Notes under the pieces: generated by a model | Database searches by the model: none | Told to the model about the DNA's origin: nothing | Seen by the model: only the letters and a program-made list of their open reading frames with translations | Translations under genes and position numbers: made by a program | Part shown: positions 31,819 through 47,113 of the stretch, piece after piece | How the letters are laid out: each line of letters begins with the position of its first letter | Numbering within the stretch: the first letter of the stretch is position 1 | NCBI GenBank assembly: GCA_029287575.1 | Contig: JARFQW010000042.1 | Coordinates: forward strand, 1-64,000 | Length of the DNA stretch: 64,000 bases | Source: Gammaproteobacteria bacterium | GTDB lineage: Bacteria; Pseudomonadota; Gammaproteobacteria; Steroidobacterales; XN24 | Direction of reading: 5' to 3'

Positions 31819-33210
31819 TCAGGCGCCCGGAATCAGGGAGAATTCGACCCGGTTGTTCTGCGCCGCGATCCGGTTCCACTCGCCGGCGGTTTCCACCGTC
31901 GACGGGAACGGGTAGCGGCGCACCGACTCCGGCCGTCCCAGCGCCTCGACCTCCACGTCGATACCCAGTTCGCTGGCCAGCAGGGAACTGGTAATGAAGT
32001 TGGCGAAACCCACGGACTGTTCATCGCCAGTGGATATTTCGAATTCCCGCTCGTGTCCCACGAAAGCGCACTGCGCGACCGGCAGGGCGGAATCCGCCAG
32101 CCGATAACGCCCGTTTTCGTCCTCGGCGAGACAGAACTCACCCAGGTGCGCTTCCATGCGGACCGTTCCCCGAAATCCGATGGCCGCGAGCTGGTCCAGC
32201 AGGTCCCGAAGCTCGGCCAGACGCCGATCGCTGAAGGCGATCTCGTCATAGGGAACCTCGCTGTTCTGGTTCACGGCCCATTCGAGGGCGTTGAGAAGCC
32301 CGGCATAACGGGCCTGGGCACGCACCTGCTCCTCGTCGATGCTGGACATCAGCGTCGCGTTCCGGGCCTCCTCGGCAGCCAGACGGCGCTCGGCGGCGGC
32401 CATGAGACGCGCGTTGTCGGCTCTTGCGGAGTCCCGCGCCGACCGGGTCTCCAAAAACATGCCGAAGAAAATCAGCGCCGGCAGCAGCAAGGCAAGAGCG
32501 GCAAGGGCGCGCCCACCGCGCCGCGGCCGTGGTGCGACCGGCTCGGCCGGTGGCTCGAGGGCGGATTCCCTCTGCTCTTCCTTCTGACGGGCATAAATCT
32601 CGGCCGCAACCCGGTTGGCAAAGTCCTGGTGGCTCTTGAGGATGTCGAGGCGCAGCTCCGCGTGCTGGTCCTGGAGAATCCGGGAAACCAGGGCCTGGAC
32701 GGACATGCCGATAGCCTGCTGATTCAGCGCCCGGTCGAGCTCCTTCTCGGCCTTTTCCATGCCACCGGATGGGGCTTCCACCTCGGCAACGACCGGCTCG
32801 CCGGTTGCCGGCGGCCGGGCGCGGCGGTCACGAACCAGACCCAGCTCCTTGAGGGTATCGAACAGCACACCGGGCTGAACCTGCTTCGGCAGCACGCCGA
32901 CCGCCCCGAGGGCCCTGGCCTGGCCCACGTACACCTCACCCTCCCTGGCGGTGTACATCATGACCGGGATCATTGCCGTGTCCGGATTTTTCTTGATGGC
33001 GGTGACGGCCTCCAGGCCGTCCATTCCCGGCATCTCGTGATCCATGAAAATGACATCCACGGACTGCCGGGTCAGAAAATCCAGCGCCGCCTCGCCGGAC
33101 TCGGCAAAATGCACGACCAGCCGATGCTCCTCGAGGAGCCGCTTGAGGGCCACGCGAGCCGATTTTGAGTCATCGACGATCAGGGCACGCTTGAACGCCA
33201 TAGGCTCCAT
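31819..33210 (-). CDS. Receiver-domain protein with transmembrane helix and C-terminal OmpA-like region
   Basis: 463 residues. Residues 6-125 are a CheY-like receiver with acidic pocket Asp13/Asp14, phospho-acceptor Asp57, Thr87 and Lys109 all intact. Next come a soluble linker, one transmembrane helix (about 234-252), a coiled coil (258-300) and a C-terminal domain that ends in Asn-Asn-Arg-Val-Glu-Phe and has the strand/helix order of OmpA/MotB-like peptidoglycan-binding domains, though divergent. A phosphorylated receiver in the cytoplasm would thus be tied to a periplasmic domain. This domain order is not one I know. It is divergent from the AsmA gene. Confidence 0.8.
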   Translation of the reverse strand: MEPMAFKRALIVDDSKSARVALKRLLEEHRLVVHFAESGEAALDFLTRQSVDVIFMDHEMPGMDGLEAVTAIKKNPDTAMIPVMMYTAREGEVYVGQARALGAVGVLPKQVQPGVLFDTLKELGLVRDRRARPPATGEPVVAEVEAPSGGMEKAEKELDRALNQQAIGMSVQALVSRILQDQHAELRLDILKSHQDFANRVAAEIYARQKEEQRESALEPPAEPVAPRPRRGGRALAALALLLPALIFFGMFLETRSARDSARADNARLMAAAERRLAAEEARNATLMSSIDEEQVRAQARYAGLLNALEWAVNQNSEVPYDEIAFSDRRLAELRDLLDQLAAIGFRGTVRMEAHLGEFCLAEDENGRYRLADSALPVAQCAFVGHEREFEISTGDEQSVGFANFITSSLLASELGIDVEVEALGRPESVRRYPFPSTVETAGEWNRIAAQNNRVEFSLIPGA

Positions 33211-35747: not shown

Positions 35748-36194
35748 CTACTCGATCGTGATCACCAGCGCCGCCTGGTGGCTTCGCCAGTTGATCGGCA
35801 CCACGAAGGAACGCAGGTTGTTCGGGCTGTGGATCCGTTCCGGCTGTCCCTTGACAACCAGGGGAACGGATATCATGAAGTCCGATCCAAACGAGCGGCG
35901 CGCGTTGCCGGAAATCGTGTTGGCCACTTCACCGACCAGATCGCACAGAAACTCGTGGGACAGGTCGGTTTCGCCCAGGCTCATCAGGAGCACCTTGAGA
36001 AGACCCGGGCCGGCCGTGAAATAGACGGTGCCACGCCGTTTTCCGGAAATACCGATAATGCCCGTGTATTCGTCGGCGACCGTCTGTTCCTCGCCGATCA
36101 GGTAGGGCGTCCCGACATCGGCGGGCTCGTCCGAGGCTTGGGTGAAGTAATGAATCGTGCCGTCGATAAAGACCTGGAGCTGTGCCTCATCCAT
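35748..36194 (-). CDS. CheX-like chemotaxis phosphatase
   Basis: 148 residues. The CheC/CheX/FliY active-site motif is clear: Asp85-x3-Glu89-x2-Asn92 followed by Ile-Ser-Gly-Asn, and the second half has Phe-Met-Ile-Ser-Val-Pro. CheX dephosphorylates CheY-phosphate. Its start codon lies 1 base after the stop of the CheY gene, with GGGGAGAG as ribosome binding site inside the CheY end. It is the last gene of kinase / CheY / CheX. The assignment of its substrate to the adjacent CheY is an inference from position. Confidence 0.9.
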   Translation of the reverse strand: MDEAQLQVFIDGTIHYFTQASDEPADVGTPYLIGEEQTVADEYTGIIGISGKRRGTVYFTAGPGLLKVLLMSLGETDLSHEFLCDLVGEVANTISGNARRSFGSDFMISVPLVVKGQPERIHSPNNLRSFVVPINWRSHQAALVITIE

Positions 36195-36195
36195 A

Positions 36196-36594
36196 TCACT
36201 CTCCCCGAATCAGCTCGGCAAGGGCCTGGTTCAGCTGCTTGTCGGTAAACGGCTTGCAGAGGAAACCGTTCGCGCCTTTTTTCAGCGCTTCGATAGCCGT
36301 CGACTTGTCGGACAAGGCGGATACCACGAGGATCAGCACATCGGGCTTGAGGTCAACCAGCCGCTCCACGCATTCAATGCCATCCATTTCCGGCATGGTG
36401 ATGTCCATGGTCACCAGGTCCGGATGGGTCTTCTCGAACAGGTGCACGGCCTCGACGCCGTTGCTGGCCTTGCCAATGATGCGAACCCCGTCGAGCTCGG
36501 TGCTGCGCTCGATCTTTCGTCGAATGATGTTCGAATCGTCCACGATCATCATCTTCATGCCGGCATCGGCTTCGGTCCTGTTTCTCGAGAGCAT
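36196..36594 (-). CDS. CheY-like response regulator
   Basis: 132 residues, a single receiver domain without output. Asp19-Asp20 form the acidic pocket, Asp64 is the phospho-acceptor (Thr-Met-Asp-Ile-Thr-Met-Pro), Ser92 takes the Thr/Ser position and Lys114-Pro the Lys position. ATG 36594 has GGAAGGG 3-4 bases upstream; ATG at residue 13 is an alternative. It follows the membrane histidine kinase by 83 bases and is coupled to the CheX gene. With no flagellar or chemoreceptor genes nearby, it more likely serves the local phosphorelay than a motor. Confidence 0.94.
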   Translation of the reverse strand: MLSRNRTEADAGMKMMIVDDSNIIRRKIERSTELDGVRIIGKASNGVEAVHLFEKTHPDLVTMDITMPEMDGIECVERLVDLKPDVLILVVSALSDKSTAIEALKKGANGFLCKPFTDKQLNQALAELIRGE

Positions 36595-36677: not shown

Positions 36678-38957
36678 TCAGGCGACGTCAGCCTGGCTGT
36701 CGGCTGCCGGCAGGGTGACCCGAAACTCGGTGCGACGGCCCTTGGCCGACGAAAGGCGCAGCCGGCCGCCGAGCTCGCGTACCCGATGACGCACCAGGTC
36801 CAGGCCCACACCGCGGCCAGCATCCTTGTTCGCTTCATCCACGGTGGAAAACCCGGCGCGGAAAATCAGCGAGAACGCCCGGCCATTGTCCATGGCATCG
36901 GCCTCTTCCTGCCCGATCAGTCCGCGAGCCACCGCCTTGGACCGGATCTCTGTCGCGTCGAGTCCGGCGCCGTCGTCCTCGATCACCATTTCATGGCCGC
37001 CGTTGGGATCCGGGTTGAACGCGATACACAGTCGTCCGGCGTCGGGCTTGCCCGAGGATTGACGCGCAGCGGGTTCCTCGATGCCGTGTATCACCGCATT
37101 GCGAACGAACTGAACGGCCATCTCCTTGACCGCCTTGCGGTAGACCGATGGAATCTCGCTGTCTCCCAGCCCCTTGCACTGCAGCTGAACCTTTTTGCCG
37201 GTCTCGCCCGCGATACGCTCGACCAGATTTTCGAGCGCACCGACAAGGCCGCCGGACACCATGCTCTGGCTCGTGCCAAGGCTCATGCTGACGCTCCGGC
37301 CGGCTTCGGCAACCTCGCCCGCAGTGCCGAGATTGGCGGTCTGGCCAGGATTGTCGCCGGCGGGCCGGAAGTCGGGAACGGCCGCGACGTGCGGCGGACG
37401 GGCTGCCTCGACCGGCGTGTTCTGGATTGCCATGCGAAGCTCGGCCAGGCGGCTAACCAGGTCCCGAACCTGGTCGAGATGATTAAACAGGTGGTCCAGC
37501 CGAACCGCCAGCGGCAGGAAGTCGTTTCCGTTGAGGCGGTCGCGCCCGCGCATGTCGTTGAGGAGTTCCTCGAATTCGTGAGCGTTGTGCTCCACGGTGC
37601 CGAGACCCAGCGCCGCGGCCTCGCCCTTCATGCTGTGGATCTGCCGGAATATACCGTCCAGCTTGCTGCGGAACGCAGCTTCATCCCGAGCCGGTTCCTT
37701 GAGGATGGTGTTGACCATCTTCATGGAGGTGTCGGTATCCTCGAGAAACGCCAGGAGCTGTGACGGCTCGACATGCAGAATCGATAGCAACAGGTCGAGC
37801 TGCTCCTTCGACTGCGTCTGGGATTCTTCCAGCTCACGGGCAAGGAGAACACGCTGGGTGACATCCGTGACCGTAACAAGGATGTGCAGCAGCTTCCCAT
37901 CCTGCTTCACCCGGTTGAAATCGAATTGCAGATACTGAGTTTCGAAACCCCCGCTACCGTCATCGAAGTGCACTTCGACTTCGCTCAGGGGGTTGAGGTT
38001 TTTGACCAGCCGGGCGTTGACCCGATCTGTCCACAGCAGGCCGACAAAGTCCAGCGCCGTCTTCAAGGTTTTCTCCGGGACGATGTCCCGCAGCATGCGC
38101 TCGAACTTGGAGTCGGCGAAGCTTTTCTTCCGGAAAATTCTCTCCATCGCCTGTGAGTGCGTGGAGCCGATATTCATGTTCTTGTCCAGCAGGAACAGAC
38201 CTTCGCTGACGGTCTTGAGTATGTTGTCGGTTTCCTGCCTGGCCTGGGAGGCTGCACGCTCTTCCCGGGAAATCTTGCGGCCGAAGTAGACGGCGATGAA
38301 GACGAACAACGCCAGCGCCACCGCCACCGCACCGCCCTGGATCAGGCGCAGCTGGGCGACCCGATTGGCGGCCTCCGCCTCCAGGTGCCGGACAAGCCGA
38401 CGCATGGCGGTAATGATGGGTTCGATCTGCGCGGAGCCGACCTTCACGGCGCTCTCCACGAGTCCCGTGAATTCCGCGCCAGCCGGCGTATAGAACTCGC
38501 TGGAACGCTCGGCATAAACGACGCCGTCAAACGCCAGCACCGGATCCAGGGCTTCCTTGAAGATCTCCCAGGACCTGGAGGCGTCCTGCAGCAAACCCTG
38601 GCCCGTGAATGTCGAGATCGGTTTCAGAAAGACGCTGTTGCCTGCCGGCCCGGTGGCGTTGCCCCCGCCCTGCATGGCGGAGAGGATGGAATCGAAGGAA
38701 CCCGCCGCGCGGCGCAGGGCCAGCTGAGCGTCTTCCACCGGATCGCCCGCGACCAGCCGGCCCTCGAGCATCATCAGATTCTTCATGAGACGCTCGGCCA
38801 GCATGCTCTGCTCGCCTGCCAGCGTGACACCCCCGCCGTCTGTGGTCAGTCGTTCGGCCATATAGAAATTGAGGCCGAAGACACCCGCCACAAACACCAT
38901 GAAGAGGCCGATGGCGCCGATGATTCCCTTGTATTGTCCTGCTTCCCTGCCGCCCAT
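36678..38957 (-). CDS. Membrane histidine kinase with PilJ-like sensor, PAS, Hpt and ATPase domains
   Basis: 759 residues from ATG 38957 (GGAAGGA 6 bases upstream). TM1 (10-31), a helical periplasmic PilJ/type-IV-like region (32-205), TM2 (206-227), a PAS-like part (about 245-370), Hpt with His441 (Ile-His-Ser-Met-Lys-Gly-Glu-Ala), then a HATPase_c with Asn620/His624, Asp661-Asp-Gly-Ala-Gly and Gly714-Arg-Gly-Val-Gly-Leu-Asp. This is the CheA-type order, P1-like Hpt plus P4, but the P5 CheW-binding domain is missing, and a sensor is built in. It should phosphorylate the CheY and receiver proteins nearby. First gene of the kinase/CheY/CheX operon. Confidence 0.92.
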   Translation of the reverse strand: MGGREAGQYKGIIGAIGLFMVFVAGVFGLNFYMAERLTTDGGGVTLAGEQSMLAERLMKNLMMLEGRLVAGDPVEDAQLALRRAAGSFDSILSAMQGGGNATGPAGNSVFLKPISTFTGQGLLQDASRSWEIFKEALDPVLAFDGVVYAERSSEFYTPAGAEFTGLVESAVKVGSAQIEPIITAMRRLVRHLEAEAANRVAQLRLIQGGAVAVALALFVFIAVYFGRKISREERAASQARQETDNILKTVSEGLFLLDKNMNIGSTHSQAMERIFRKKSFADSKFERMLRDIVPEKTLKTALDFVGLLWTDRVNARLVKNLNPLSEVEVHFDDGSGGFETQYLQFDFNRVKQDGKLLHILVTVTDVTQRVLLARELEESQTQSKEQLDLLLSILHVEPSQLLAFLEDTDTSMKMVNTILKEPARDEAAFRSKLDGIFRQIHSMKGEAAALGLGTVEHNAHEFEELLNDMRGRDRLNGNDFLPLAVRLDHLFNHLDQVRDLVSRLAELRMAIQNTPVEAARPPHVAAVPDFRPAGDNPGQTANLGTAGEVAEAGRSVSMSLGTSQSMVSGGLVGALENLVERIAGETGKKVQLQCKGLGDSEIPSVYRKAVKEMAVQFVRNAVIHGIEEPAARQSSGKPDAGRLCIAFNPDPNGGHEMVIEDDGAGLDATEIRSKAVARGLIGQEEADAMDNGRAFSLIFRAGFSTVDEANKDAGRGVGLDLVRHRVRELGGRLRLSSAKGRRTEFRVTLPAADSQADVA

Positions 38958-39103
38958 GGTGTCCTTCCCGTTGGTTCGTGGGACGCCAGTCCCGTGTTGC
39001 GAAATCCTTGGCGGTTGCTCGATCCGGTGCCTCGCGGGCACTGTCGCAGGATGGAGACTAACGCCAGCCATCCGGGCCGGGGTTGAACTCAGTCACAGTA
39101 TTG

Positions 39104-39118
39104 GACATAAGAAATGTC
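39104..39118. promoter_or_regulatory. Inverted repeat GACAT-N5-ATGTC between the kinase operon and the receiver-kinase gene
   Basis: GACAT (39104-39108), AAGAA, ATGTC (39114-39118) form a 15-base dyad in the 240-base gap between two divergent genes (38958-39197). Its place suits an operator that would control one or both transcripts. I see no strong sigma-70 or sigma-28 box around it. No known regulator is matched. Confidence 0.35.
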
Positions 39119-39197
39119 TCGTCTGTTTCTGCCGGTTCAGACCTTTACACTCCCGGTCGGGACGGATAACTTGGCCTCCGGTTTTCAGGTCCCCCCC

Positions 39198-40442
39198 ATG
39201 AATCCACGTTTTGCCATTGTCGACAGTCACGCGGCTTTTCGTGCCCTGGTCCGACACCATCTGGGTGTCCGTTGGCCCGAAGCACGAGTGGACGAATTCG
39301 ATCCCTCCAAGGCCGACATTCCGGCCACGGACCTGGCCGGCGCGGGGTACGACCTGGTGCTCGTCGATCCCACTTCGATTGCGGCGGCCTCAACGCAGGA
39401 ATCGCTGAACTGGATGAAGTCCTTCTGCGGCCGTTCGGACTCGCCGCCGATCATCGTGCTGCCCGAGGGAGGCGACGAACTCTACGCGGTCCGGGCGATG
39501 AAGGCAGGAGTCGCTGACTACATTCCAAAACGACTCATGACCCATCAGCTACTCGTGCGGTCCGTGGACGAACTTCTGGTCACCCGAGATCCGGCAGCTT
39601 TGGAGGCGGCCACGACCATCACCGATAGCTCGATGCCCAGGGCGGTGGTGCTGCCCGGCTACCGTATCGTCCGGCCGATTTCCCAGGGGCGGCTGGCCTC
39701 GGTCTACCTCGCCGACAGCAAGGCGCTGGGCGAGCGGGTGGTCCTGAAGGTATTGATGGATGCTTCGGACATGCCGGGCTTCCGGGAGGACTTCGACCGG
39801 TTCACGCTGGAATGCGACCTGGTCGGCCAGCTCAACAACCGGGCCATCGTCGACATCTATGACCACGGGATCAGCGACTACTTCGCCTTCATCGCGATGG
39901 AGTACTTCCCCTGTGGCGATTTCAAGGCCCGTCTGCAGAACCCGCTTTCCGGCGCGGAGATCGTGGACTATATGAGTCAGCTCGCCGCGGCACTGCAGGT
40001 CATCCACGAGCTTGGCGTGCTCCATCGGGATCTCAAACCCGGGAACGTCATGCTGCGCGAAGACAACAGTATTGCACTGATTGATTTCGGACTCGCCAAG
40101 CAGCTGAACGCCGAATCGGGGCTCACCGGAGCCGGCGAGATTCGCGGGACGCCCTACTATCTGAGCCCTGAGCAGGCCAAGGGCGAATCCGTCGACACAC
40201 GCAGCGACCTCTACAGCCTGGGGGTCATGCTCTACGAAATGCTGACCGGAAAGAAGCCCTTCGTCGGCAACTCGTCAATCGACATCATTCACGCGCATGT
40301 GACCGAGGACATTCCCGAGCTGCCGCCCGAACGAAGCGGCTTCCAGGGCATCCTCGAGGACCTTATGGCGAAAAACCCGGACAAGCGTATCCAGAGCGCC
40401 GGCGAATTGCTCAACGTCCTCGAAGACTTCGACCTCTACTAG
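39198..40442 (+). CDS. Receiver domain fused to a Ser/Thr protein kinase
   Basis: 414 residues from ATG 39198. Residues 1-125 are a receiver: phospho-acceptor Asp57 (Leu-Val-Asp-Pro-Thr) and Lys111 are kept, but the acidic pocket has only Asp9 (Asp-Ser) and the Thr/Ser switch is not clear. Residues about 155-414 are a eukaryotic-type kinase: a weak glycine loop, Lys184 (Val-Leu-Lys), His276-Arg-Asp278-Leu-Lys-Pro-Gly-Asn, Asp296-Phe-Gly, and Gly-Thr-Pro-Tyr-Tyr-Leu-Ser-Pro-Glu. No transmembrane helix or PASTA repeats, so it is cytosolic. A phosphoreceiver would control kinase activity. Divergent from the CheX/CheY/kinase operon. Confidence 0.92.
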   Translation: MNPRFAIVDSHAAFRALVRHHLGVRWPEARVDEFDPSKADIPATDLAGAGYDLVLVDPTSIAAASTQESLNWMKSFCGRSDSPPIIVLPEGGDELYAVRAMKAGVADYIPKRLMTHQLLVRSVDELLVTRDPAALEAATTITDSSMPRAVVLPGYRIVRPISQGRLASVYLADSKALGERVVLKVLMDASDMPGFREDFDRFTLECDLVGQLNNRAIVDIYDHGISDYFAFIAMEYFPCGDFKARLQNPLSGAEIVDYMSQLAAALQVIHELGVLHRDLKPGNVMLREDNSIALIDFGLAKQLNAESGLTGAGEIRGTPYYLSPEQAKGESVDTRSDLYSLGVMLYEMLTGKKPFVGNSSIDIIHAHVTEDIPELPPERSGFQGILEDLMAKNPDKRIQSAGELLNVLEDFDLY

Positions 40443-40458: not shown

Positions 40459-41055
40459 GTGAGCGCCTCAGCAGATACCCTGGTTGCCGGCTTCGCCGCT
40501 TACGCCAGCAGCAACCTGGACAATGTGCTCGTTCTGATTGCGCTACTCAACGCACCGGATCTGAGCCGGCGGGCCGTTATCGGCGGCCATCTTGCGGGCA
40601 TTCTGATCGTGGCGCTGGCCGTCGGCGGGCTTGCGCTGACACCGGAGCTCATTTCACCCGACCACGTCGGCCTGCTGGGCGTTATCCCGCTGGCCATGGG
40701 GGCGGCGCGGCTGTTCCAGCTGGTTCGCGGAAGCGGGCTCGAGCTGGCGGACATCTCGCCCCGCCGGGGCGCAAGCGGATTCTCTCAGGCCACGACACTC
40801 CATGTGACCGGCAGCGCCGACACTCTGGCCGTATTCGGCCCGCTCATAGTGGATTCGCTGCCCTCGGCGAGGCCCGCGCTGGGCGCGACCTTTCTGGTCG
40901 CCGCGGCGCTGCTGGCCTGCGCCGCGGTCCTTCTGTCGCGGCGACGGACGGCTGTGGCGATGCTCTCCCGAGGCGGCGCGTGGACTGCGCCCGTGATCAT
41001 GGTTCTGGTCGGTGCCTACGTACTCGCCGATACCGCCGACGACCTGCTTCTCTAG
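40459..41055 (+). CDS. CadD-like cadmium-resistance/cation transporter
   Basis: 198 residues from GTG 40459, 16 bases after the receiver-kinase stop. Five or six hydrophobic helices and the N-terminal Ser-Asn-Leu-Asp-Asn motif followed by Leu-Leu-Asn-Ala, with the repeat-like Thr-Gly-Ser-Ala-Asp-Thr in the middle, fit the CadD family of the LysE superfamily. It may export a divalent cation, but a family name is not proof of cadmium transport. Its stop codon TAG lies on the CTAG shared with the convergent FadD gene (41052-41055). Confidence 0.8.
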   Translation: MSASADTLVAGFAAYASSNLDNVLVLIALLNAPDLSRRAVIGGHLAGILIVALAVGGLALTPELISPDHVGLLGVIPLAMGAARLFQLVRGSGLELADISPRRGASGFSQATTLHVTGSADTLAVFGPLIVDSLPSARPALGATFLVAAALLACAAVLLSRRRTAVAMLSRGGAWTAPVIMVLVGAYVLADTADDLLL

Positions 41056-42722
41056 CCTGACGTGGGCCCTGAGGTGGGCGATGTGTCAGCGACCACTTCG
41101 TCCCGCAAAACCCGCCGCAAAATCTTGCCCACGTTTGTCTTGGGCAATTCGCCGCGGACCTCGATACGGCGCGGGACCTTGTACGCGGTCAGCTGCTGAC
41201 GGCAGTAATCCTTCAGCGCGTCCTCATCCAGGCTGGCGCCCGTCTTAAGTACCACATAGAGCACGATCGCCTCGCCCGTGCGATCGTCGGGAACACCCAC
41301 ACAGGCGGCTTCGAGAATGTCTTCGTAACGGGTGACGACGTCCTCGATCTCATTGGGATACACGTTGAAGCCCGACACGAGGATCATGTCCTTCTTGCGG
41401 TCGACGATCTCGATACAGCCGGACTCATCGAACCTCGCGATATCACCGGTACGGAAAAACCCGTCTTCGGTGATCACCTCGGCGGTCGCCTCGGCTTGTT
41501 GCCAGTAGCCCTGCATGACCTGGGGCCCGCGTACCCACAACTCGCCCGGCTCACCGGCGGCAACGAGACGGCCGTTGAGGTCCCGAAGCGTCACCTCCGT
41601 GTCGACCAGCGGAGGCCCTACCGTGCCGCTCCAGGCGCCCGGGATGCCGGCTTGCTCCGCGCTGACCACCGGCGATGTCTCGGTCAGCCCATAGGCCACC
41701 TGGATCCGGGAACCCGTCACCCTGAGCCATTCTTCCGCAACGATCTTGTGCAGCGGCGCACCCCCGGTACCCGTGAAGCGCAGGCGGGAAAAGTCCAGCG
41801 CGCGGAAATCCTGCCGCTGGAGCAACGCCGAAAACAGGGTATTGATGCCGACGAACCCGCTGATCCGGCGCCGGCGAAGCTCGCGGAGAAACGCGTCCAG
41901 GTCCCTGGGATTGGGAATCAGCAGCTGGCAGGCACCGCTGTGGAGAAACAGCATGAGGCCCGGAATCAGTGCTGCCGCATGATAGATCGGCAGCGGTAAC
42001 ACGAACACGTCTTCCCCGGGGCACACCTCGGCCAGGAGTTCCGCCTGAAGTTCCTCACACTGGGCCAGATTGGCGAGCACGTTGCCGTGGGACAGCATCG
42101 CTCCCTTGGAGAGCCCGGTTGTGCCGCCGGTATATTGCAGAAACGCCAGGTCGTCGCGGCCTGTGCTCGTCGGCGGCGGGTCACTGCCCTCACTGGCTCG
42201 CGCCACGGCGAGCCAGCGATGATGGCCGGGCAGTTCGTAGGCGGGTACCAGCTTCTTGACGTAGCGCAGCACGAAATTCACGAGCCTGCGTTTCAGCCGC
42301 GGAAGCTCGTCAGCCACCTCCGTGACGATCACATGCCGCACTGCCGTGTCGGCCACTACCGTCTCGAGGGTAGCGGCGCAGTTTGCAAGAACAAAAATCG
42401 CCAGCGCCCCGGAGTCGCGGAGCTGGTGAGACAGCTCCCGCGCCGTATACAGGGGGTTGACGTTGACCACGACCAGGCCGGCCCGAAGGATGGCGTGCAG
42501 CACGATCGGGTACTGCAGCACGTTGGGCAACATGACCGCGACGCGGTCCCCAGGCTGAAGGCCGAGATCGGATCGTAACCAGCCCGCCAGATCCCGGGAG
42601 CGGCTTTCCAGCTGCGCAAAGCTCAGGCTGCCACCGAGACAGGAGAAGGCCTCGTGCCGACCATGCCGCAGACAGGCCGAGGAAAAGTAGTCGCCGAGAT
42701 TCTCCTGCTGAATATTCGTCAC
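41052..42722 (-). CDS. fadD: Long-chain fatty-acid--CoA ligase (second of a tandem pair)
   Basis: 556 residues. Activates long-chain fatty acid with ATP and CoA. AMP-binding signature Tyr-Thr-Gly-Gly-Thr-Thr-Gly-Leu-Ser-Lys-Gly-Ala is present with the FadD linker Asp-Arg-Lys-Lys-Asp-Met-Ile-Leu-Val-Ser-Gly-Phe-Asn-Val-Tyr-Pro-Asn-Glu and the C-terminal catalytic Lys in Lys-Thr-Asn-Val-Gly-Lys-Ile. Its start is 33 bases behind the stop of a paralogous fadD, as in Pseudomonas fadD1/fadD2. The pair gives the cell two acyl-CoA synthetases from one transcript. Confidence 0.95.
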   Translation of the reverse strand: MTNIQQENLGDYFSSACLRHGRHEAFSCLGGSLSFAQLESRSRDLAGWLRSDLGLQPGDRVAVMLPNVLQYPIVLHAILRAGLVVVNVNPLYTARELSHQLRDSGALAIFVLANCAATLETVVADTAVRHVIVTEVADELPRLKRRLVNFVLRYVKKLVPAYELPGHHRWLAVARASEGSDPPPTSTGRDDLAFLQYTGGTTGLSKGAMLSHGNVLANLAQCEELQAELLAEVCPGEDVFVLPLPIYHAAALIPGLMLFLHSGACQLLIPNPRDLDAFLRELRRRRISGFVGINTLFSALLQRQDFRALDFSRLRFTGTGGAPLHKIVAEEWLRVTGSRIQVAYGLTETSPVVSAEQAGIPGAWSGTVGPPLVDTEVTLRDLNGRLVAAGEPGELWVRGPQVMQGYWQQAEATAEVITEDGFFRTGDIARFDESGCIEIVDRKKDMILVSGFNVYPNEIEDVVTRYEDILEAACVGVPDDRTGEAIVLYVVLKTGASLDEDALKDYCRQQLTAYKVPRRIEVRGELPKTNVGKILRRVLRDEVVADTSPTSGPTSG

Positions 42723-42755
42723 GTGCTGCTTGCCCCCGGCATGAACGGAACGACG

Positions 42756-44444
42756 CTAGGCGTGGCGCGCCATCTCTTCGTCGCGCAAAGCCCTGCGCAG
42801 AATCTTACCCACGTTGGTCTTTGGCAGATCGTCCCTGAATTCCACGTGCTTGGGAACCTTGTAGCCGGTGAGATTCTCCCTGCAGAAGGCGATGATCTCT
42901 TCTGCCGTCGGCGACTGGCCGCTTTCGGGAACCACGAAAATCTTCACGGCCTCCGTGGACTTCGGATCCGGAATGCCGATGCAGGCTGCCTCGAGAACCT
43001 TGGGATGCTGGGTAACGACGTTCTCCACCTCATTCGGATAAACGTTGAAGCCCGACACCAGGATCATGTCCTTCTTCCGATCGACAATACGGAAGTGACC
43101 GCTCTCTTCCATGATCGCGATATCGCCGGTTCGCAGGTATCCGTCCTCGTACATCACGTCAGCGGTGGCTTCGGCCCGTTGCCAGTAGCCCTTCATGACC
43201 TGCGGCCCATGAACGCACAGCTCGCCGGATTCCCCTGGGGGAAGGTCCCTGCCCTCGCTGTCGCGAATGGCGACATTCGTGGATGGCAGGGGCAGACCGA
43301 TGGTGCCGGAAAAAACGATGTCCGAACCCGTGGGCTGCATGCTCACCACGGGTGAGGTCTCGGTCAGCCCGTAGCCCTCCTGGATCAGGCCGCCGGTCAC
43401 CTCGTACCAGCGTTCCGCCACCGCCTTCTGCAAAGCCATTCCGCCGGCACCGGCCCATTTCAGCGAGGAAAAATCCAGTGCCCGGAAGCCGTCGTCGGCG
43501 AGCAGCGCATTGAAGAGCGTGTTGACCCCGGTGATGACAGTGAAACGGTGCTGGGCGAGCTCCTTGACGAAGGCCGGAATGTCGCGGGGGTTGGCGATCA
43601 GGACGTTGGTTGCCCCCAGCGACATGAAGAGCATGCAGTTACAGACCAGGCTGAAGACGTGATAGAGCGGCAGGGCGGTAATCACGATTTCCGGATTGTC
43701 CTCCTCGATGATGCTCTGGATCCAGGCCCGCATCTGCAGCAGGTTCGCGGTCATGTTGCGATGGGTCAGCATTGCGCCCTTCGAGAGCCCCGTGGTGCCT
43801 CCCGTGTACTGAAGGAATGCCAGGTCGTCCTGGGTCACGTCCGGTCGATCCAGCATCAGGGACTCGCCCTTGGCCAGCACGTCGTTCAGGCGCTCATGGC
43901 CCGTCAGACTATAGGCGGGCACCATCTTCTTTACGCGGCGGAGCACAAAATTCACGATGGCGGATTTGGGGAACCCGAGCATGTCGCCGAAATCGGTAAC
44001 GACGACTTTCTTCAGCGGGGTTTTCGACAGCACATCTTCCAGTGTGCCGGCGAAGTTGGAAAGAATCACGATCGCCTCCGCGCCGGAGTCCACGAGCTGG
44101 TGCTCCAGTTCCCGGGGCGTGTACAGGGGGTTGACGTTGACGACCGTGTACCCGGCACGCAGAACGCCGAAAAGCGCGACCGGGTACTGGAGAATGTTGG
44201 GCATCATCAACGCGACCCGCGCACCGCGTTCCAGCCCCGCGGACTTCTGCAGCCAGGCCCCGAAGGCGGCGCTCTTTCGATCCAGCTCCGCATAGCTCAT
44301 GGACTTGCCCATACAGCTAAAGGCCGAACGCCTGGCAAAGCGCTGACAGCTGTCTTCGAAAATCGAAACGAGAGTCTGTCCGCCGGAAAGATCGATCTCG
44401 GCGGGCGTTCCCGCGGGATAGTGCGTAAGCCAGGGCTTGTCCAC
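42756..44444 (-). CDS. fadD: Long-chain fatty-acid--CoA ligase (first of a tandem pair)
   Basis: 562 residues from GTG 44444, chosen because AGGAG lies 9-10 bases upstream and the Asp-Lys-Pro-Trp-Leu start matches FadD. It has the same signatures as its neighbour: Tyr-Thr-Gly-Gly-Thr-Thr-Gly-Leu-Ser-Lys-Gly-Ala, Asp-Arg-Lys-Lys-Asp-Met-Ile and Lys-Thr-Asn-Val-Gly-Lys-Ile-Leu-Arg. FadD binds the inner face of the membrane and couples fatty-acid uptake to beta-oxidation. The region 44445-44638 between it and the bactofilin gene should hold both promoters; I see no clear FadR site. Confidence 0.95.
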   Translation of the reverse strand: MDKPWLTHYPAGTPAEIDLSGGQTLVSIFEDSCQRFARRSAFSCMGKSMSYAELDRKSAAFGAWLQKSAGLERGARVALMMPNILQYPVALFGVLRAGYTVVNVNPLYTPRELEHQLVDSGAEAIVILSNFAGTLEDVLSKTPLKKVVVTDFGDMLGFPKSAIVNFVLRRVKKMVPAYSLTGHERLNDVLAKGESLMLDRPDVTQDDLAFLQYTGGTTGLSKGAMLTHRNMTANLLQMRAWIQSIIEEDNPEIVITALPLYHVFSLVCNCMLFMSLGATNVLIANPRDIPAFVKELAQHRFTVITGVNTLFNALLADDGFRALDFSSLKWAGAGGMALQKAVAERWYEVTGGLIQEGYGLTETSPVVSMQPTGSDIVFSGTIGLPLPSTNVAIRDSEGRDLPPGESGELCVHGPQVMKGYWQRAEATADVMYEDGYLRTGDIAIMEESGHFRIVDRKKDMILVSGFNVYPNEVENVVTQHPKVLEAACIGIPDPKSTEAVKIFVVPESGQSPTAEEIIAFCRENLTGYKVPKHVEFRDDLPKTNVGKILRRALRDEEMARHA

Positions 44445-44638: not shown

Positions 44639-45031
44639 ATGATAGGGAAGAAACGACGGCTGCGTGATCAGTCAGACGGTCCGGCCACCATCATCGGCGA
44701 AACCGCGACGGTCCAGGGCGCCCTGGGCGGCAACGGTCACTTTGTCATCGAGGGTCACGTCGAGGGTGACAGCCAGCTCCATGGCCTGGTCACGCTGTCG
44801 GCCACCGGACGCTGGACCGGCAGTCTCGAAGCGACGGACGTGATCATCGCCGGAACACTCGACGGCGATCTTCGCGCCACGGGCAAGGTGGAAATCACTC
44901 CGTCCGCACGTATCGACGGGAGCGTGACGGGTGCAAGCATAGCCATTGCCGAAGGGGCGGTCATCGCCGGCGAAATCAAGGTGACACACGCTGAAGACGT
45001 GCATCACTTCCAGGAACGACGAAACAGCTAG
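44639..45031 (+). CDS. Bactofilin (polymer-forming cytoskeletal protein)
   Basis: 130 residues; ATG 44639. The core is the right-handed beta-helix of bactofilins, with hydrophobic positions every six or so residues (Ile-Ile-Gly-Glu-Thr-Ala-Thr-Val-Gln-Gly-Ala-Leu, Phe-Val-Ile-Glu-Gly-His-Val-Glu-Gly, Val-Ile-Ile-Ala-Gly-Thr-Leu-Asp-Gly-Asp-Leu). The N-terminus is basic and short, and the C-terminus is a short charged tail. Bactofilins polymerise into filaments that scaffold cell-shape and envelope enzymes. The gene is alone between fadD and the GGDEF-EAL gene. Confidence 0.94.
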   Translation: MIGKKRRLRDQSDGPATIIGETATVQGALGGNGHFVIEGHVEGDSQLHGLVTLSATGRWTGSLEATDVIIAGTLDGDLRATGKVEITPSARIDGSVTGASIAIAEGAVIAGEIKVTHAEDVHHFQERRNS

Positions 45032-45223
45032 CCTGGCGCCGTTCACTTCGCTGACCCCAGCCGCTACACTCTGAACGCGCGGCACGCTGGCTTGAACCGG
45101 AAGCGGTTCGGCCAGCAACAACAATCAACAACATGGCCGCGGCGGACACTCCAGAGGGGCGGGAGATGGTCGAGAGCTTACCCGGGGGCGGGCGACGCGC
45201 CGTTTGTGCTGCGCGGGATTCGT

Positions 45224-47113
45224 ATGCCTGATCGCACCACGGCTGTGGCTCTCTTCAGCATCATCGCCGCGATTGGTCTGGGGCTGCTCGCTCTAACGGG
45301 CGCTGTGAGCGCCACGCTGGCTGCCCCGGTAGCCGCGGTCCTGTGCCTGCTTGGCGGGTATCTGTTCGGCCGCATGGCCGGGGCCCCCACCCAATCGGGT
45401 GAGACCCACATGCCGGCCAATCAGGCCGCTCCCGGCCTGGACGCCCTTGTGGTCGAGGAGATCGGCGAGGGCGTTCTGACTCTCGACGACCAGGGCCGCA
45501 TCCGGCGGGCGAATGACGCCGCGGCTCAGCTGCTGGGACAGAGCGCGCCAGCGCTGAAGGGGCTTGCGCTCACCGACCTGATTGAAGAAGGCGCCGACCC
45601 GGTCCTGGATGGCGCGGGCTACCCGATTTCCAGCGGCCGAACCGTGCTGAAGCGCGCCGGCTCGGACCCGGTACCGGTCGCCTTCAGCTGCGTGGCACCC
45701 GAACCGGGCCGGCCGGAGGCCACAGCCGTGATTCTCCGGAGCCTGGCCAACGAGGATCGCTCGAAGAAGCGCATCCGCTACCTCGCGCGCTATGACTCCC
45801 TGACCCGGGTGGCAAACCGCATGGAGTTTCAGCATCGCCTGCAGCAGGCGATTGCCCGCGCAAGACGCAATGGCACCCGGCTGGCTCTGCTTTACGTGGA
45901 TATCGATCGTTTCAAGGACGTCAACGACCGTTTCGGCCACCTCGTCGGGGACCGCAGCCTGGAAATCATGGCCCGCCGCATCGTCGATTTCCTGGAGGAT
46001 TCCGATCTGGTCGGCCGGCTGGCGGGCGACGAGTTCGCCGTGCTCATCGAAGGGCTCCCGGCGGACAGCCAGGCCCGGGCCGGCCTTGCCGGCACGTCAC
46101 GCATGCTGCTCGACCGCATTGCCAACGAATTCCATGTGGAACGCCAGGAAATCTTTCTGACCGCCAGCATCGGCGTGGCCTGCTTCCCGGATGACGGGGA
46201 CAACGTCATCGACCTCATCCGCAATGCGGACGCCGCGATGTATCACGCAAAAAAGGCGGGCGGCAATACCTACGGGTTTTATGCCGCCGACATGAACGCC
46301 GACGCGGTCGATCGCCTGATGCTGAAAAGCGAGCTTCGCCGTGCCATGGAGCGGGATGAGTTCCTGGTACTTTATCAGCCCAAGGTGGACCTGCGCGACG
46401 GCCGTATCGCCGGCGCCGAGGCCCTCCTGCGCTGGAGCCACCCCAAACGCGGGGACGTGCCACCGGGGAAGTTCATCCCGCTTGCGGAGGAAGGGAGCCT
46501 GATATTCGAGATCGGCGAGTGGGTGCTGAACCGGGTTTGCAGCGACTATCTGGGCTGGCAGACCCGGCTGGCCTGGCCGGGCCGCGTCGCGGTGAACCTG
46601 TCGCTGAAACAGCTGCGCCAGCGTGACTTCGTCCAGCGTATCGAAGCCACCTTCGAGAAACATCGGCTGACGCCGTCTTGTGTCGAACTCGAGATCACCG
46701 AATCGACGCTGATGGACGACGGCGAAAAGACCTTGCACATGCTCGATCGCTTGTACGAACTCGGGCTGCATCTGTCCATCGACGATTTCGGTACGGGTTA
46801 CTCTTCGCTGAGCGCCCTGCAGCATTTTCCCATCGGCACTCTCAAGATCGACCAGTCGTTTGTCCAGGATGCCGGCGAAAACAGCGAGAGCCGGACCATC
46901 GTCACCACGATCATCAACATGGGCCGCAGCCTGAACATGGACGTCGTGGCCGAAGGCGTCGAAACCCGGGAGCAGCTGGAGATCCTGCGCCGACATGGTT
47001 GCACCTACGGCCAGGGACACCTGTTCGGTGCCGCACTGACCGCCACCGAGTACCGGGATCTTCTGCTCCGGCAGCAGCGCGGCGAGCGGCCCGACGAGGG
47101 ACTGTTCGCCTGA
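45224..47113 (+). CDS. GGDEF-EAL c-di-GMP protein with PAS domain
   Basis: 629 residues from ATG 45224. Two membrane helices (about 8-28 and 31-49), a PAS-like domain (about 75-170), then GGDEF with Ala267-Gly-Asp-Glu-Phe271 in place of the first Gly, and EAL with Glu399-Ala-Leu401, Asp-Asp-Phe-Gly-Thr-Gly-Tyr-Ser-Ser-Leu, Asn-Leu-Ser and Lys-Ile-Asp-Gln-Ser-Phe-Val all intact. The EAL domain should hydrolyse c-di-GMP; the GGDEF domain may still bind GTP or be weakly active. It is probably a membrane sensor that tunes motility or attachment. The 45032-45223 gap before it shows nothing I can name. Confidence 0.93.
   Translation: MPDRTTAVALFSIIAAIGLGLLALTGAVSATLAAPVAAVLCLLGGYLFGRMAGAPTQSGETHMPANQAAPGLDALVVEEIGEGVLTLDDQGRIRRANDAAAQLLGQSAPALKGLALTDLIEEGADPVLDGAGYPISSGRTVLKRAGSDPVPVAFSCVAPEPGRPEATAVILRSLANEDRSKKRIRYLARYDSLTRVANRMEFQHRLQQAIARARRNGTRLALLYVDIDRFKDVNDRFGHLVGDRSLEIMARRIVDFLEDSDLVGRLAGDEFAVLIEGLPADSQARAGLAGTSRMLLDRIANEFHVERQEIFLTASIGVACFPDDGDNVIDLIRNADAAMYHAKKAGGNTYGFYAADMNADAVDRLMLKSELRRAMERDEFLVLYQPKVDLRDGRIAGAEALLRWSHPKRGDVPPGKFIPLAEEGSLIFEIGEWVLNRVCSDYLGWQTRLAWPGRVAVNLSLKQLRQRDFVQRIEATFEKHRLTPSCVELEITESTLMDDGEKTLHMLDRLYELGLHLSIDDFGTGYSSLSALQHFPIGTLKIDQSFVQDAGENSESRTIVTTIINMGRSLNMDVVAEGVETREQLEILRRHGCTYGQGHLFGAALTATEYRDLLLRQQRGERPDEGLFA

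Follow-up and report, generated by a model that had tools for sequence, protein, structure and literature searches.

The 64,000-nucleotide stretch analysed here (the window; positions 1 to 64,000 of contig JARFQW010000042.1, assembly GCA_029287575.1, from a gammaproteobacterium of the order Steroidobacterales) belongs to a 208-contig assembly that resembles a metagenome-assembled genome (MAG; 92.8% complete). It holds a locus at which a CheA-like membrane histidine kinase, a CheY-like receiver and a CheX-family phosphatase are encoded on the minus strand, divergently from a gene in which a receiver-like domain is fused to a Ser/Thr kinase (REC-STK; STK for the Ser/Thr kinase). An earlier note, made from the sequence alone, had read these genes as a phosphorelay in which the histidine kinase phosphorylates both CheY and the receiver of the REC-STK, with CheX removing the phosphate. 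All four genes are present as claimed, and the relay interpretation is partly supported by the analysis presented below. The features of the locus are the following, ORF denoting open reading frame.

36678-39071, minus strand: ORF of the membrane sensor kinase; gene 36678-38957 from the likely start Met39, 759 residues
36702-37115, minus strand: HATPase_c domain of the kinase, ORF residues 653-790, with intact N, G1 and G2 boxes
37635-37637, minus strand: codon for the phospho-accepting His of the Hpt domain (residue 479 of the ORF, 441 of the protein)
36196-36594, minus strand: CheY-like single-domain receiver with Asp19, Asp20, Asp64, Ser92 and Lys114 (ORF numbering; the start may be Met13)
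35748-36194, minus strand: CheX-family phosphatase with the motif E89-x-x-N92
38958-39197: divergent intergenic region between the likely start sites of kinase and REC-STK genes, 240 bases
39198-40442, plus strand: REC-STK (P0004), ORF from 39114, likely start Met29
39213-39554, plus strand: receiver-like domain of the REC-STK; phospho-Asp and Lys kept, Thr replaced by Pro, second acidic residue replaced by Ser, 4-residue insertion after the Asp
39660-40394, plus strand: Hanks-type protein kinase domain (PF00069, E 6.7e-46) with VAIK Lys, HRD Asp and DFG Asp intact

The CheY and CheX genes, separated by a single base, fall just beyond the interval 36678-40442 to which the module had been assigned, and a consensus scan of the divergent intergenic region revealed no sigma-70-like site. 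The kinase most likely starts at Met39 of its ORF, because the N-terminus is conserved there in 8 homologues, and with this start the numbering of the phospho-acceptor as His441 is right.

The kinase is composed of a PilJ/NarQ-type sensor, a PAS-like domain, an Hpt domain and a CheA-P4-type ATPase. Its Hpt and HATPase_c domains exceed the Pfam cut-offs, and the best solved relatives in the PDB are CheA proteins. In the AlphaFold model (mean predicted local distance difference test, pLDDT, 86), four helices form the membrane sensor; a PAS-like domain and a helical Hpt region follow, and a disordered linker leads to the P4-type ATPase. PilJ stays below the Pfam cut-off in the window kinase (E 0.0012; detected in 28 of 44 relatives). 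The PAS-like domain has no Pfam match; the model alone reveals it, as an alpha/beta fold spanning residues 242-365. The absence of a CheW-binding domain holds, as no P5 (CheW-like) domain gave a Pfam match in 44 members of the kinase family and the modelled chain stops after P4. A P3 domain likewise has no Pfam match and the linker at residues 522-567 is of low confidence in the model, yet the kinase profile aligned, from its position 507, to CheA residue 270 of 6s1k. CheX matches PF13690 (E 1.5e-19) and has 6vpw and 3h2d as solved relatives.

A scan of genome contigs with an alignment of 8 kinases yielded 53 beta- and gammaproteobacterial loci as well as two MAGs of other groups. Kinase, CheY and CheX are adjacent in that order in all 51 loci with enough contig, and the catalytic sites (Hpt His; N, G1 and G2 boxes of the ATPase; Asp, Ser and Lys of CheY; Glu and Asn of CheX) are invariant in the 58-59 aligned sequences, the sole exceptions at the scored sites being one Gly to Ser change beside the Hpt His and one Ser to Thr change in CheY. 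Both residues of the CheX ExxN motif, E89 and N92, are kept in 58 sequences. Kinase, CheY and CheX therefore form an ancient cassette, self-contained as the earlier note had supposed for the window. Within the order, this CheX occurs in 111 of 396 genomes, nearly all from two families; in the window genome's own family it was found in one of seven genomes examined, the window genome itself. The CheW genes of that genome sit on other contigs (C28 and C30) and FliM was not found in the assembly; therefore, CheY is probably not addressing the flagellar motor, and a flagellar output was dropped. An output through cyclic di-GMP, hinted at by downstream GGDEF genes, was dropped as well, since GGDEF was verified only at locus L063, with a homologue at L064 and L080. 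A GGDEF protein immediately follows CheX at L063 (11070-12557) and L064 (5813-7342), and not in other members of the same family; the 604-residue gene product that follows CheX in Steroidobacteraceae is a TonB_C protein. The open-access literature that we searched on CheX with Hpt or STK, PilJ, orphan kinases and nitrate assimilation contained no description of the cassette.

The sensor of the cassette kinase belongs to the nitrate-binding PilJ family, an ancestry that the earlier note had missed. The best solved relative of the sensor profile is McpN of P. aeruginosa (PDB 6gcv, E 1.3e-5), the model of the window kinase has a PilJ/NarQ four-helix bundle between two transmembrane helices, and a Foldseek search with the model of the sensor (mean pLDDT 92) retrieves structures of NarQ and McpN with probabilities of 0.99-1.00 and E-values of about 0.005-0.02, in a list that also mixes in flagellins at similar E-values and low TM-scores. 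Nitrate-binding PilJ sensors are marked by an N-box with G-x-x-R (PMC6381276, PMC8199190), defined in the McpN paper as [IVL]-[ND]-x-A-G-x-Q-R-M-L-[ST]-Q (PMC6381276). Among 54 relatives of the kinase, it is exact in 15 and present with at most one mismatch in 22. It is absent from the window kinase and its Steroidobacteraceae sisters (full-length tree, support 98/93), and the window retains only a relic.

38793-38828, minus strand: N-box relic VTLAGEQSMLAE, with 4 mismatches to the consensus [IVL][ND]xAGxQRML[ST]Q, including replacement of the nitrate-binding Arg by Ser

The matching R50S variant of NarQ does not bind nitrate, yet it crystallised in a ligand-bound-like form (PMC7247690). As for its ligand, the window sensor is probably unresponsive to nitrate, because the binding Arg is replaced by the very residue with which NarQ cannot bind it. 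In Burkholderiales, the cassette is flanked by nrtABC-type transporter genes on one side and by nirB, nirD and a gene for a molybdopterin reductase of nasA type on the other (L100, 6823-18775). This nitrate-assimilation setting, in which an N-box kinase is a candidate regulator, had also escaped the earlier note. The cassette was also seen within or beside nitrate-assimilation genes (nrtABC, nirBD, nasA) at L099, L105, L112, L113, L118 and L119, and an ammonium transporter gene adjoins CheX in the Arenicella loci. Ser/Thr kinase genes stand near the cassette in some of these clusters (L105 15588-17402, L112 2846-4549, L113 17295-19028, L119 13769-15502), those at L105 and L112 being verified as PP2C-kinase fusions.

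The link between the kinase and REC-STK families extends beyond the window genome. In 20 further cassette loci read across the order, six have a REC-STK gene that directly precedes the kinase gene in the same orientation, with the two genes abutting or overlapping. When the 396 genomes of the order were searched with an alignment of these operonic STKs, nine genomes gave matches of 580-768 bits, the next match falling to 392 bits, and all nine strong matches lie directly upstream of kinase-CheY-CheX on the same strand. In at least 14 other loci, among the next-best STKs fetched, a REC-STK gene directly adjoins that of a soluble kinase relative; no CheY or CheX was found near these 14 pairs, and this count is a minimum rather than a rate, as the pairs were sampled among the STKs that scored best against the operonic model. 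Both arrangements, operon and pair, occur in five genomes (G096, G268, G298, G371 and G393). The kinase tree splits the STK-linked kinases into three separate groups (window, operon and pair), with STK-free cassettes between the window and operon groups, and the linked STKs likewise fall in separate clades of the STK tree; a tree of the Hpt and ATPase parts only does not fix the position of the window kinase. The branching suggests that the adjacency of the two families probably arose more than once or was lost many times, either of which argues for a functional tie. Since nine STK-kinase-CheY-CheX operons and 14 pairs of STK and kinase were found beyond the window genome, we consider a functional partnership of the kinase family with REC-STKs likely.

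Most full-length relatives of the REC-STK reside at a conserved folC-dedD-cvpA-purF-(glycerate kinase)-STK-miaE-metallophosphatase-cyclophilin neighbourhood. REC-STKs related to P0004 are found in 56 of 59 genomes of the order, at a loose threshold that counts other Ser/Thr kinases too. The purF-locus form was seen at L143, L066 and about 30 other loci, and its receiver decays in several families. The window genome, too, has an STK at this locus, encoded on contig C174, and its receiver is intact. P0004 represents the second paralogue, a divergent one; none of the genomes searched contains a relative more than 45% identical to it. It joins the purF group in the STK tree (96/86), apart from the operonic clade; an origin by recent duplication of the genome's own purF-locus STK was ruled out by the tree. 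Homologues of the four genes do occur apart in related genomes, which the earlier note would have counted against its module, as regards the common purF-locus STK and most cassettes, which lack a neighbouring STK.

How signal might pass between the partners is suggested by the pattern of decay. Each of the 67 STKs retains all the Ser/Thr kinase residues that were checked. Judged from sequence, the receivers of every linked group are decayed, and intact ones are confined to a part of the purF group. The operonic STK receivers have lost Thr and Lys, and most show a shifted or substituted phospho-Asp; the operonic kinases retain the Hpt His. In the paired soluble kinases the Hpt His is lost in 14 of 14, and the G2 box is partly lost too. 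Such Hpt-His-less soluble Hpt/ATPase proteins beside a decayed-receiver REC-STK (L209-L213, L215-L220 and L226-L228) might represent pseudo-kinase/Ser-Thr kinase pairs. The parallel loss of donor and acceptor, while the genes stay adjacent, fits an old Hpt-receiver contact retained as a docking interface. The window REC-STK lacks the full receiver site set (two acidic residues, phospho-Asp, Thr/Ser and Lys), keeping of these the phospho-Asp, the Lys and the first acidic residue of the pair, and its receiver scores under the Pfam cut-off (25.4 against 30.2 bits).

We therefore favour, at about an even chance, an explanation in which a His-Asp switch is combined with a REC-STK gated by docking. 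The CheA-derived membrane kinase, whose nitrate-receptor-type sensor, having lost the nitrate-binding Arg, we view as retuned here, would autophosphorylate His441 and pass the phosphate to its own CheY, from which CheX would strip it. The divergent REC-STK would be a functional partner and not a chance neighbour; its receiver-like domain would most likely dock on the Hpt/ATPase part of the kinase, and the direction of control would run from the kinase, whose state might gate Ser/Thr phosphorylation mainly through contact and not through a full phosphorelay. Several observations weigh against this explanation. The window pairing is a single instance and is divergent rather than co-directional, the window STK is outside the operonic clade and does not share that group's position upstream on the same strand, and about 101 of the 111 CheX-bearing genomes of the order have no operonic-type STK beside the cassette.

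A true His-Asp relay, as proposed in the earlier note, in which the kinase phosphorylates CheY and the STK receiver, which would turn Ser/Thr kinase activity on or off, CheX acting as a drain, seems to us unlikely. The window receiver does retain the phospho-Asp, one acidic residue and Lys, the Hpt His is present in the window kinase, and the recurrent linkage of the two families would fit a relay. Yet hand-over of phosphate from the kinase to the window STK receiver appears weakly supported and is doubtful because that receiver is decayed, with its Thr to Pro change, loss of one acid, insertion after the Asp and sub-threshold score; moreover, the receivers of the nine operonic STKs and of the pairs are pseudo-receivers, the Hpt His is gone in the pairs, and the intact purF-locus paralogue of the same genome would be the better acceptor. 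Quite improbable, in our view, is the reverse direction, in which the STK docks on the kinase, CheY or CheX and phosphorylates it at Ser/Thr, tuning the level of phosphorylated CheY. It would draw on the same operon and pair linkage, a pseudo-receiver would serve docking only, and the phosphorylation of two-component proteins by Ser/Thr kinases is well documented (reviewed in PMC12189002), but the loss of the Hpt His in the paired kinases would be left unexplained. That a conserved cassette merely happens to adjoin a divergent STK paralogue is a long shot: the STK has no close relative and stands alone in the tree, the orientation is divergent, and no STK was seen beside the cassette in the seven trio-bearing order genomes first examined, but with two such STKs among some 3,000-3,500 genes, as estimated from genome size, chance would place them side by side with odds of the order of 0.1%, and adjacency of the two families recurs in 23 other loci that belong to at least two further clades. 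Our own first view that the STK is unrelated to the cassette, based on those seven genomes and the 51 contig loci, was dropped when the operons came to light in a broader sample of the order.

Returning to gating by docking, a broader reading may be put forward more tentatively, at somewhat less than an even chance, namely that of a recurrent partnership between CheA-like kinases and REC-STKs in which a His-Asp relay is turning allosteric. The pairs would represent a stage at which Hpt His and receiver Asp are both gone and the genes remain adjacent, the operons one at which the STK receiver alone is decayed and the His still serves CheY, and the window an intermediate with an intact Hpt and a half-decayed receiver. 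If true, one bacterial order would contain a natural series in which a two-component kinase becomes coupled to a Ser/Thr kinase, some members having lost the His and Asp chemistry on both sides, and the persistence of signalling without phosphotransfer would become testable on small purified proteins. In addition, the present study names a widespread kinase-CheY-CheX cassette, undescribed in the open-access literature searched, for which nitrate sensing is likely in many lineages.

Several neighbouring genes of the window may be mentioned. Two genes downstream of CheX (31819-33210, minus strand) lies a gene for a 463-residue protein whose N-terminal receiver is intact (PF00072, E 1.1e-25); the protein also has a likely transmembrane segment and a C-terminal part without a Pfam match. 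Beyond the REC-STK, a tandem pair of AMP-binding genes of acyl-CoA ligase type (41052-44312, minus strand) is followed by a bactofilin gene (44639-45031, plus strand) and a gene for a PAS-GGDEF-EAL protein (45206-47113, plus strand).

Compared with known systems, the cassette is CheA/CheY/CheX-like by its parts and is not a chemotaxis system by the features tested. It shares with the CheA-CheY-CheX phosphorelay an Hpt domain with a CheA-type P4 ATPase, CheY, and CheX with the ExxN motif, and differs in that the membrane sensor is fused to the kinase, a CheW-binding P5 is absent, a separately folded P3 is not apparent, and FliM was not found. With the nitrate receptors NarX/NarQ and McpN it has in common the PilJ-family sensor domain and, in many relatives, the N-box, whereas the window sensor has Ser for the nitrate Arg and the output is Hpt/CheY/CheX instead of DHp/NarL or a methyl-accepting chemotaxis protein. 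The PP2C-Ser/Thr kinase fusions at L105 and L112 resemble our locus in placing a Ser/Thr kinase near the same cassette; unlike P0004, they join PP2C and kinase with no receiver and are tied to nirB/nasA and not to the cassette. SypE of Vibrio fischeri is a response regulator with a Ser/Thr enzyme output. HsbR (PA3346) of P. aeruginosa is a response regulator with a phosphatase output and a functional receiver (PMC12189002). What these two have in common with the window locus is the principle of a two-component signal carried into protein Ser phosphorylation; in contrast to HsbR, the output here is a Hanks kinase whose receiver is decayed and whose gene adjoins that of a CheA-like kinase.

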